A stretch of DNA of 64,000 nt from Prescottella sp. R16 (GTDB lineage: Bacteria; Actinomycetota; Actinomycetes; Mycobacteriales; Mycobacteriaceae): contig NZ_CP130943.1 of the NCBI RefSeq assembly GCF_030656875.1, positions 868,001-932,000 of the forward strand. The letters are read 5' to 3'. The notes under the pieces were generated by a model that was not told the DNA's origin, ran no database searches, and saw only the letters and a list, made by a program, of their open reading frames with translations. The position numbers were made by a program, and so were the translations under genes. Every line of letters begins with the position of its first letter. Within the stretch, counting starts at the first letter, position 1. Shown one piece after another: positions 44,802 to 47,182 of the stretch.

Positions 44802-45107
44802 CTACTTGGTGACGGTCACGTCCACGCTGTGCACGCCGGGGGCGGACGGGCTGATGCGCACGTCGCCGTTGCCGGCGGCGGAGAGGGCGCGGACCTTCCA
44901 GTCGCCGGGGGCGGCGAAGAAGCGGAAGTCGCCGGTCGCGGAGGCGACGACCTCGGCGGTGAACTCGTCGGTGCTGTCGAGGAGGCGGACGAACGCGCCA
45001 CCGACCGGCTGGCCGGCGGTGTCGAGGACGCGGCCGGTGATGACCGTTTCCGTCTCGACGTTGACGCCTGCGGGCAGGGTCTGGGTCTGAACAGGTGCTC
45101 CGCACAT
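44802..45107 (-). CDS. sseC: DUF1416 protein (SseC-like)
   Basis: This 101-residue protein of the DUF1416 family is found with cysA2-type sulfurtransferases in actinobacteria (SseC in mycobacteria). It begins MCGAP and has TVITGRVLDTAGQPVGGAFVRLL, a carboxypeptidase-regulatory-like beta sandwich, and ends VHSVDVTVTK. It starts 5 bp after the sulfurtransferase stop and is in the same operon. A role in sulfur handling is inferred from context. Confidence 0.9.
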   Translation of the reverse strand: MCGAPVQTQTLPAGVNVETETVITGRVLDTAGQPVGGAFVRLLDSTDEFTAEVVASATGDFRFFAAPGDWKVRALSAAGNGDVRISPSAPGVHSVDVTVTK

Positions 45108-45112
45108 AACTC

Positions 45113-45946
45113 TTATGCTCCCAACTCGATCGGTGCGCCGACCAGCGAGCCGTACTCGACCCAGCTGCCGTCGTAGTTCTTCACGTTCTGCTTACCGAGG
45201 ATCTCCTGCAGCACGAACCAGGTGTGGCTCGAGCGCTCGCCGATACGGCAGTAGGCGATGGTTTCCTTGGAGTCGTCGAAGCCCTTGTCCGCGTACAGCT
45301 TCGCGAGGTCTTCGTCGGACTTGAAGGTGCCGTCCTCGTTGGCGGTGGTGCTCCACGGGATGTTGATGGCGCCGGGGACGTGGCCACGCTGCTGTGCCTG
45401 TTCCTGCGGCAGGTGCGCCGGCGCGAGGATCTTGCCCGAGTACTCGTCGGGGGAGCGGACGTCCACCAGGTTCGCGGAACCGATCGCGGCGATCACGTCG
45501 TCGCGGAAGGCGCGGATCGAGGTGTCGGGCGCTGCGGCCTTGTACTCGGTGGCCGGGCGGGTGACGGTCTCCTTCGACAGCGGACGGCCGTCGAGCTCCC
45601 ACTTCTTGCGGCCACCGTCGATCAGCTTGACGTCCTGGTGGCCGTACAGCTTGAAGTACCAGTACGCGTACGCGGCGAACCAGTTGTTGTTGCCGCCGTA
45701 GAGGACCACGGTGTCGTCGTTCGCGACGCCCTTCGCGGACAGCAGCGCAGAGAACTGTTCCTGGTTCAGGAAGTCGCGGCGGACCGCGTCCTGCAGATCC
45801 TTGCGCCAGTCGAGCTTGATCGCGCCCTCGATGTGGCCGCCGTCGTAGGCGGAGGTGTCCTCGTCGACCTCGACGAAGACGGTCTTGGGTGCGGTCAGAT
45901 TCTGCTCGGCCCAGTCTGCGGAGACCAGGACGTCGGAGCGAGCCAT
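45113..45946 (-). CDS. cysA: Thiosulfate sulfurtransferase (rhodanese, CysA2-type)
   Basis: This 277-residue two-domain rhodanese has an inactive N-terminal domain and a catalytic C-terminal domain with Cys233 in YCRIGERSS, the CRxGxR loop of thiosulfate sulfurtransferases. It moves sulfane sulfur to cyanide or thiol acceptors. ATG at 45946 follows AAAGGACC. It lies between the DUF4395 gene and sseC on the minus strand, downstream of a polycysteine leader ORF. Confidence 0.94.
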   Translation of the reverse strand: MARSDVLVSADWAEQNLTAPKTVFVEVDEDTSAYDGGHIEGAIKLDWRKDLQDAVRRDFLNQEQFSALLSAKGVANDDTVVLYGGNNNWFAAYAYWYFKLYGHQDVKLIDGGRKKWELDGRPLSKETVTRPATEYKAAAPDTSIRAFRDDVIAAIGSANLVDVRSPDEYSGKILAPAHLPQEQAQQRGHVPGAINIPWSTTANEDGTFKSDEDLAKLYADKGFDDSKETIAYCRIGERSSHTWFVLQEILGKQNVKNYDGSWVEYGSLVGAPIELGA

Positions 45947-46001: not shown

Positions 46002-46469
46002 TCAGGCCAGGTTTCGGGTGTTGCCGCGCAGGCGTGCGACCAGTGGGTAGATCTGGCAGCCCAGGCAGACCCCGAAAGCGGCGTTGAGGAGCGCGGCGAA
46101 CAGTGCGAACCCGGTCGCGACGGCCCCGACGAGCCCGGCGCCGGCGAGGAAACCGACGGTGCCGACGGCCGCGAAGACGAGACCGACGAGCTGTGCGAAC
46201 CGCAGCGGTGCGACGGGCTCACGTTCGGTGACCGGCCCCAGCCGTGGGGAGACGACGGCCGCGAACAGTCGGCCGTACGGGCTGCGGCGCGGCCCGGCCA
46301 GGGCGCCGATCGCGAAGACGACGGCCTGCGCGGCCAGCAGGATGCCGGCGACCAGCGGCGACACCGTCGACACGATCAGGACGATCACCAGGACGGCGGT
46401 GGTGACCCAGGCGGCGAAACGTGGACCGCGGACGTCGACCTGCTGTGCGGTGAGGGTGGGAGTGGACAT
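46002..46469 (-). CDS. DUF4395 membrane protein
   Basis: This 155-residue protein has about four membrane helices and the DUF4395 signature FGVCLGCQIYP (CxxC) near residues 132-142, which suggests redox or sulfur chemistry at the membrane. It is encoded first after the polycysteine leader and 55 bp before the rhodanese gene. ATG at 46469 follows GCAGGAGC. The upstream frame extension to 46631 lies antisense to nothing known but overlaps the leader and is not used. Confidence 0.88.
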   Translation of the reverse strand: MSTPTLTAQQVDVRGPRFAAWVTTAVLVIVLIVSTVSPLVAGILLAAQAVVFAIGALAGPRRSPYGRLFAAVVSPRLGPVTEREPVAPLRFAQLVGLVFAAVGTVGFLAGAGLVGAVATGFALFAALLNAAFGVCLGCQIYPLVARLRGNTRNLA

Positions 46470-46605
46470 GCGGAGTGCTCCTGCGGGATACCGAGTGCTG
46501 AGATGCCGGCGCGTGGCGGCGGGCTTTTCGGATGCACCGATCACGGGTGGGTTCGTCGGACAGCGACGACACGCTGGGCCGGAAAGAGGCGTCGACCTGC
46601 CGTGA

Positions 46606-46671
46606 TCAACAGCAGGGACAGCAACAACCACCGAGGCGGCACAGGTCGACTGCGCGGCGTCGGGTGAGCAT
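46606..46671 (-). CDS. Polycysteine leader peptide (cysteine attenuator uORF)
   Basis: ATG at 46671 opens MLTRRRAVDLCRLGGCCCPCC and a TGA at 46606. Six of 21 codons are Cys, five in the last six positions. It lies 136 bp upstream of the DUF4395-rhodanese-sseC genes on the same strand and only 55 bp past the thioredoxin stop. Short upstream ORFs ending in a Cys run are known in mycobacteria to sense cysteine supply through ribosome stalling and to attenuate sulfur operons. A candidate extended -10 (TGTACT) lies about 25 bp upstream, so the message has a very short or no leader. Confidence 0.75.
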   Translation of the reverse strand: MLTRRRAVDLCRLGGCCCPCC

Positions 46672-46726
46672 CAGCTCGTGGTTGGAGTACACGAGGTGCA
46701 GCGTACCCAATTTTTCGCGATGTGGG

Positions 46727-47182
46727 TCACTCGGTTTCGAGGAGTGGGACCAGGGCCGCTTCGAGGTCGGCCGCCGACGGCACCCCGGAGATGCGGAAAC
46801 GTTCGGTCAGATCGCCGTCGAGGATGAACGTGGTGGGAAGCGACAGGACGCCGAGAGTCTTTGCCAGGGCGGGGTTTTCGTCGATGTCGAGTTCGATGTC
46901 GAGAGCGGCCGGACCGTCGGTGCGGGATGCGTCGAGCTTGGCGAGAACGTTCCCGACGACGCGACGGACCGCCGCGCACGGGCCGCACCAGTCGGCGGAG
47001 AAATGGAGGACGACGGGGTGTCCGGTCGCAGTCACCCCGGCCTCGGTGAGGAGCACGGTCCGCTCGTCGCCGGCCGTCGCGGCAGGTTCCGACGCGCGCA
47101 CCCTCCCGGCTCGCGCCCGCAGCGCGAGACCGACGGCGAGGGTGGCGGCGACCGCGATCAGTAGAACGACGACAGCGGTCAT
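46727..47182 (-). CDS. Membrane-anchored thioredoxin-family protein
   Basis: This 151-residue protein has an N-terminal membrane anchor (residues 1-22) and a thioredoxin domain with the active site DWCGPCAAV (Cys66, Cys69) and the cis-proline segment LSLPTTFI. It corresponds in position to the thioredoxin-like Rv0816c. Its start overlaps the lmeA-like gene stop by four bases. It probably works on disulfides near the membrane, as part of the sulfur cluster. Confidence 0.92.
   Translation of the reverse strand: MTAVVVLLIAVAATLAVGLALRARAGRVRASEPAATAGDERTVLLTEAGVTATGHPVVLHFSADWCGPCAAVRRVVGNVLAKLDASRTDGPAALDIELDIDENPALAKTLGVLSLPTTFILDGDLTERFRISGVPSAADLEAALVPLLETE

Follow-up and report, generated by a model that had tools for sequence, protein, structure and literature searches.

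A conserved cysteine-rich leader ORF ahead of the DUF4395-rhodanese-sseC operon of Prescottella sp. R16 and its likely role as a cysteine-supply switch

The leader and the operon behind it

The window analysed in this work, a stretch of 64,000 nucleotides from Prescottella sp. R16 (contig NZ_CP130943.1), carries on its minus strand an operon related to cysteine or sulfur metabolism, as recognised by Pfam and by a survey of equivalent loci. Its first gene encodes a DUF4395 protein (46002..46469, PF14340), with a Shine-Dalgarno site AGGAG at 46478..46482, and it is followed by the genes for a rhodanese-type sulfurtransferase of the CysA2/SseA type (45113..45946, PF00581) and for a DUF1416 protein (44802..45107, PF07210), the latter being what we take to be the SseC-type product. 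Upstream of the operon, and on the same strand, lies a thioredoxin-like gene (46727..47182, PF13098/PF00085); among 145 loci that have a DUF4395 relative, 74 of the best 80 show this neighbour in the same orientation. Between the two sits a short ORF whose C-terminal end reads GGCCCPCC, so that consecutive cysteines (CCC-P-CC-stop) stand next to the stop codon; they are encoded by the tract TGT TGC TGT CCC TGC TGT (46609..46626, minus strand), proposed here to contain the sensor codons. Since the stop of this leader ends at 46606 and the DUF4395 gene starts at 46469, the gap between them is 136 bp.

The sequence-only reading that preceded this analysis had pointed to a 21-codon minus-strand ORF with a Cys run before its stop, placed in front of the DUF4395, rhodanese and sseC genes and separated from the first of them by 136 bp. 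The ORF is indeed there (the minus strand from 46671 to 46606 encodes MLTRRRAVDLCRLGGCCCPCC and a stop), and its position and spacing agree with the Pfam assignments (DUF4395, Rhodanese, DUF1416) and the coordinates. One point to refine is the ATG start at 46671, a codon that is not conserved (it is CTG in L076 and TTG in L050). The leader probably starts at an in-frame GTG at 46692, which yields an ORF of 28 codons (46606..46692, minus strand, MYSNHELMLTRRRAVDLCRLGGCCCPCC plus stop). Seven bases ahead of this GTG there is a candidate −10 box, TACGCT (46700..46705, minus strand), and the message would therefore be leaderless. The thioredoxin-like gene stops 34 bp ahead of the GTG and probably lies outside the leader transcript. 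The same layout was found in 77 of 77 leaders (that of the window plus those found at 76 of the best 80 of the 145 DUF4395 loci), all of them with a TANNNT box 6-8 nt ahead of an in-frame GTG (76) or ATG (1), it being understood that the starts were picked by means of this box; the background in the same loci, a count that takes in the leaders' own starts, is 186 of 12255 ATG or GTG triplets with a TANNNT box 5-9 nt upstream. Thus compared, the promoter layout of the window leader fits a leaderless start.

The leader peptide scored 32.5 bits with the NCBIfam model NF042934 (cis_reg_atten, putative leader peptide), above its 27-bit cut-off, and 43.2 bits with NF042933 (leader_Ms5788A), just below the family threshold of 45 bits, a model with which a peptide of the mycobacterial type reached 56.5 bits. 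NF042934 is a short motif model that also matches leaders of other operons in the same genome and is silent on mechanism. An Rfam search of 46300-46900 returned nothing relevant, and TGYTGYTGY counts over the whole genome carried no information, as the pattern read backward is more frequent.

The Ms5788A leader of Msmeg_5788 in Mycobacterium smegmatis and of cysA2 in M. tuberculosis (NF042933) occupies the same place ahead of the same operon, and in mycobacterial loci this type shares with the window leader the GTG layout, the terminal Cys run and an LTxRRAVDLCR core. It differs in that the run of the window leader, CCCPCC, is shorter than in most of the mycobacterial loci compared, and in that the gap of 136 bp exceeds the 86-112 bp of nearly all of them (60 bp in L045, where the start is uncertain). 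Shell 2015 (PMC4633059) describes this leader ahead of cysA2/Msmeg_5788, with ribosome occupancy in M. smegmatis, and bears out the likeness to mycobacterial polycysteine upstream ORFs drawn in the earlier reading. Cysteine-dependent attenuation in mycobacteria is attributed to Canestrari 2020 in the descriptions given by PMC9031893 and PMC13236596, while six Cys-rich small ORFs are treated as predicted regulators in Smith 2022 (PMC9094748). The actinobacterial cysteine leaders predicted in Seliverstov 2005 (PMC1262725) likewise have Cys codons near the leader stop, before sulfur genes, but concern other cases, namely the cys operon in Mycobacterium and in P. acnes, and cbs in B. longum. As given there, all of these leaders have Cys runs, P. 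acnes and B. longum being outside the host's family. Judging from its title, Lyubetsky 2014 links proteins with PF00480 or PF14340 domains to sulfur metabolism via expression regulation; PF14340 is the family of the operon's first gene, and this work may already cover the leader of the DUF4395 operon. Searches of an open-access library, which lacks most subscription journals, showed no paper on the leader in Rhodococcus-type bacteria and none on a nascent-peptide role for it.

Conservation of the leader and of its peptide

Conservation was examined in a near set made up of the best 80 of the 145 loci with a DUF4395 relative, which come from Mycobacterium and allied genera, Rhodococcus, Rhodococcoides, Nocardia and some metagenome bins. 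A short upstream ORF with a Cys-rich end was present in 76 of these 80 loci, including 74 of the 74 named loci with a rhodanese gene in the fetched stretch. The other six lacked the rhodanese gene in that stretch; two of them had the leader (L073, L106) and four did not (L040, L042, L046 and L109, the sequence of the last beginning only 155 bases ahead of DUF4395). In the window's genus, DUF4395 was found in 12 of 14 genomes, and all 12 DUF4395 loci have the leader. The end GGCCCPCC is kept in the window and in 11 of 11 same-genus relatives, for which the leader consensus is VY[AP]NHELMLTRRR[AT]VDLCR[LV]GGCCCPCC. The conservation in another genus surmised from the sequence alone thus finds counted support, and none of those same-genus and rhodanese-bearing loci was seen to retain the operon while losing the Cys codons. 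In this way, a mycobacterial regulatory element is extended to a further genus. As a separate observation, L040, L042 and L046, which correspond to M. persicum, M. innocens and M. gastri, have neither leader nor rhodanese nor sseC in the fetched stretch, and their DUF4395 gene comes directly after a thioredoxin-like gene.

A second set was anchored on the operon rather than on the leader. A search of 61 genomes of the order, 53 of which had a match, provided 51 rhodanese matches of at least 68% identity, from 50 genomes, and up to 1.2 kb upstream of each was scanned for short ORFs (12-45 codons) that had the leaderless layout and carried two or more Cys among their final twelve residues, the peptide motif being left unused. 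A qualifying leader ORF was found in 39 of the 51 regions, and the opposite strands yielded none (0 of 51); the leader ORF is, therefore, more than chance. RR-x-V/I occurred in all 39 leaders despite not being a search criterion (L209 has G in place of D), and relaxed rules that do use the motif added 8 regions, raising the count to 47 of 51, although two of those added (L245, L249) have no ATG or GTG start ahead of the motif. Four regions (L228, L233, L248, L253) lacked the motif even under the relaxed rules. Three consecutive cysteines, in turn, were found in the 6 leaders of the host's family and in 0 of the 33 anchored leaders of other families, which have two to four Cys each, as in MGTLLTKRRAVDLCRVATCLCRPVI. 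As the run occurs in host-family leaders alone and the motif in all 39, for this operon and in this sample the poly-Cys run is a trait of the host's family and the motif is wider: what was kept across the sampled families is the peptide motif, not the run.

In a profile search, 185 of 200 genomes matched at E values up to 0.1, with 52 above cut-off; one of 14 control genomes also matched, and weak matches are therefore not proof. The Ms5788A leader profile matched ten times in one genome (G188, family f14) and one to four times in each of the other matching genomes listed. A Rhodococcus leader gave no match in a phage collection.

The leaders of the other families also made it possible to estimate selection on the peptide. 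Among 30 distinct sequences out of the 33 anchored leaders from families other than the host's, pN/pS was 0.14 (0.06/0.45) for the eight specified residues of the LTxRRxVDLxR motif and 1.12 (0.48/0.43) for the residues ahead of it; both values come from pairwise, tree-free counts, the ORFs having been aligned according to their best fit to a motif consensus. The first L, both R, the D and the last R are invariant in 30 of 30; of the same 30 leaders, 28 have the V, 27 the second L, 25 the T and 25 a Cys after VDL. A previous dN/dS estimate of 0.09, obtained from a diverse set, was replaced by the operon-anchored one because the members of that set had been chosen by the motif. The non-Cys residues of LTxRRxVDLxR, which are kept in more families than the Cys run, are thus under strong selection at the peptide level, hinting at a role for the nascent peptide. 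Such conservation is not predicted by the counting of Cys codons, and it is the part of these results that falls outside the known model.

Predicted RNA pairings

Folding suggests that the Cys codons mask the Shine-Dalgarno site of the DUF4395 gene and that a stalled ribosome would release it. In the window, predicted probabilities of pairing with the Cys tract are 0.62-0.78 for four of the five Shine-Dalgarno bases, and values for other leaders were 0.74-1.0 (L076), 0.84-0.88 (L098), 0.92-0.94 (L043) and 0.33-0.52 (L052); of six leaders examined one by one, that of the window included, four pair strongly, and in L084 the site pairs with other parts, not with the tract. RNAalifold, unprompted, placed this pairing in the consensus of the 12 same-genus leaders and also in that of 22 Rhodococcus-type and Nocardia leaders, and individually it exceeded 0.5 in 6 of the 12 same-genus leaders and stayed below 0.2 in the other 6. 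When a ribosome was simulated by sliding a 30-nt footprint along 75 leaders, the predicted opening of the site was largest over the Cys tract, with a mean gain of 0.99 kcal/mol; the means elsewhere were −0.20 kcal/mol upstream and 0.09 in the gap, the tract giving the larger value in 54 and 53 of the 75 leaders, respectively. The mean gain over the tract was about 1 kcal/mol for the 12 same-genus leaders, and in the window a ribosome placed on the run's first Cys gave only about 0.2 kcal/mol, as against about 1.0 on the later Cys codons. For 36 distant leaders chosen by profile, the gain at a Cys codon exceeded that upstream in 29 of 36 and that in the gap in only 16 of 31, and the mean pairing between tail and site was 0.17.

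The predicted duplexes between tract and site average −16.3 kcal/mol, compared with −12.0 with a gap segment. Over all 75 leaders, a tract paired better with its own site than with swapped ones (20 of 5000 permutations reach the observed value), but within groups no such advantage was found (709 of 5000). Covariation for this pairing did not exceed that in shuffles (the named pairs hold in 98.0% of cells, and in 97.9% after shuffling), because both strands are constrained for other reasons. Compared with other AGGAG sites at the same loci, pairing with the DUF4395 site was stronger than their mean in 17 of 22 testable loci, where 7 of 32 such sites (2 of 9 in the window) paired at least as strongly. 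Support from the modelling is, in all, partial, uneven among the same-genus leaders and small in the window.

A further hairpin, indicated by wobble constraint and by RNAalifold, would form inside the leader ORF ahead of the Cys run (GCGCAG-UCGAC-CUGUGC, 46639..46655, minus strand). In the 77 near leaders, the codons for R-A/T-V-D-L-C can form GCRCAG-UNGAY-CUGUGC. Within the stem, the Ala/Thr codon (one Ser) ends in A in 74 of 77 leaders and each of the three remaining wobble positions has its commonest base in 75-77 of 77, while the loop wobbles of Val and Asp vary. The RNA would therefore explain part of the conservation in this near set. In the diverse set, the Ala/Thr codon is mostly GCG (24 of 39), as opposed to the A-ending codons of the near leaders. 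Among 46 distinct diverse leaders, some of them from the host's family, 11 break the third pair of the stem and 1-7 break each of the remaining five, and the hairpin was rejected as a general feature, being often broken there. After the leader stop, GATCACGG (46607-46600) may pair with CCGTGATC (46546-46539) in a hairpin spanning 46539..46607 on the minus strand, which was predicted in the same-genus alignment and is absent from the prediction for the wider one; the 136-bp gap is poorly conserved between species. The proposal that GTCGACCTG of the leader might switch between two CAGGTCGAC partners, one after the stop and one inside DUF4395, was dropped because, among 19 leaders compared, the post-stop copy occurs in the window only.

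Mode of action and related leaders

The leader is a real and conserved member of a known regulatory kind, from which we infer its function in this host; it is most likely a cysteine-supply switch such as those known from mycobacteria. By analogy with the mycobacterial counterpart, transcription would start at the leader, which would be translated and would stall ribosomes in response to cysteine. We consider it probable that, through this leaderless, Cys-rich ORF, translation of the DUF4395-rhodanese-sseC operon is matched to the supply of cysteine. In such a model, when Cys-tRNA is ample, ribosomes would complete the leader and leave, and the freed Cys codons would pair with the DUF4395 Shine-Dalgarno site and block it. 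With Cys-tRNA in short supply, a ribosome would wait in the Cys run and cover the tract strand, so that the site would open and the operon be translated. DUF4395 and the SseC-type gene would thereby be tied to cysteine supply.

The conservation of the non-Cys residues raises the question of whether the peptide acts besides the codons, with LTxRRxVDLxR contacting the exit tunnel and the ribosome pausing at the next Cys codons, perhaps in response to cysteine itself, and the poly-Cys run of the host's family as a later addition. Such a role, which can hold together with the translation switch, is possible but doubtful. It would account for the low pN/pS on the motif, for the presence of RR-x-V/I in every anchored leader, for the lack of a three-Cys run outside the host's family and for the similar motifs ahead of three other operons in the genome (with NF042934, one over and two under the cut-off). 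Against it, judging from trp leaders, ordinary attenuation can work with just two or three Cys codons; the selection could also reflect a small protein with its own function; the motif codons of the near set form the constrained hairpin described above; and the pN/pS values carry the limits of their treeless, motif-aligned counts. A broader proposal, to be taken as tentative and rather unlikely, is that the polycysteine attenuator of this operon is a lineage-specific variant of an older actinobacterial leader in which the nascent peptide, LTxRRxVDLxR plus Cys, takes part in sensing. The ribosome would then read cysteine status via the peptide, not just by waiting for Cys-tRNA, and, if the peptide does take part, a new family of arrest peptides would stand ahead of sulfur genes.

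Control might instead be exerted on transcription, either by stalled ribosomes shielding the message from Rho or by alternative hairpins ending transcription before DUF4395. Rho was proposed for mycobacterial cys leaders in Seliverstov 2005 (PMC1262725), where the prediction is termed rather weak, and the 136-base gap would offer room for such control; but the gap is poorly conserved between species, the pairing predicted between the Cys tract and the Shine-Dalgarno site suits control of translation, and a consensus scan of the minus strand found no convincing intrinsic terminator with a U tract between the leader and DUF4395, the sole candidate, of 5 pairs, lying inside the leader ORF. This alternative is accordingly regarded as distinctly unlikely. 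It is highly improbable that the ORF arose by chance, or that it encodes a small protein with a separate role, the operon not being regulated by it. Selection on the peptide would suit a small protein too, but the contrast between strands (39 of 51 against none), the way in which the leader's presence tracks the rhodanese gene and the leaderless layout common to all 77 near leaders speak against both. The translation switch responding to cysteine supply thus continues to be the preferred reading.

A search of the genome with NF042934 at a loose threshold, at which 10 of 14 control genomes also match (0 above cut-off), followed by inspection of the matches, revealed three further leaders of a similar type. 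A Cys-rich leader, MTDTGVRLVARRHVDLKRVCSCCCLPCGA, ending in VRLVARRHVDLKRVCSCCCLPCGA (L115/L255, G000:C1 2904249-2904305, plus strand), precedes a sulfite reductase gene, itself followed by a GTPase gene that looks like CysN and a CbiX gene. It scored 50.8 bits (cut-off 45) with NF042936, the model for the Ms4527A leader of nirA/sirA, and has CAGAAT at the box position; it represents a second leader of such kind in the genome, differing from that of the window in its operon and in its motif, RRHVDLKRV. The leader MTRSFLTRRLHLDLVRVAGAACCRFTMR, with FLTRRLHLDLVRVAGAACC (L114/L254, G000:C1 283984-284037, plus strand), is of the leaderless type, has a TANNNT box 7 nt ahead of its start and scores 31.6 bits with NF042934, above the cut-off; it precedes an SCO4226-like gene and an ABC transporter with an NMT1-type binding protein, which, as a guess, may serve sulfonate uptake. 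The third, MTEPRAIDSGALLTRRRHVDFALVCTCGCR, ending in LLTRRRHVDFALVCTCGCR (L116/L256, G000:C1 4154943-4154969, minus strand), falls below all family cut-offs; it is also of the leaderless type, with TANNNT 6 nt ahead of its start, and stands ahead of an OsmC gene.
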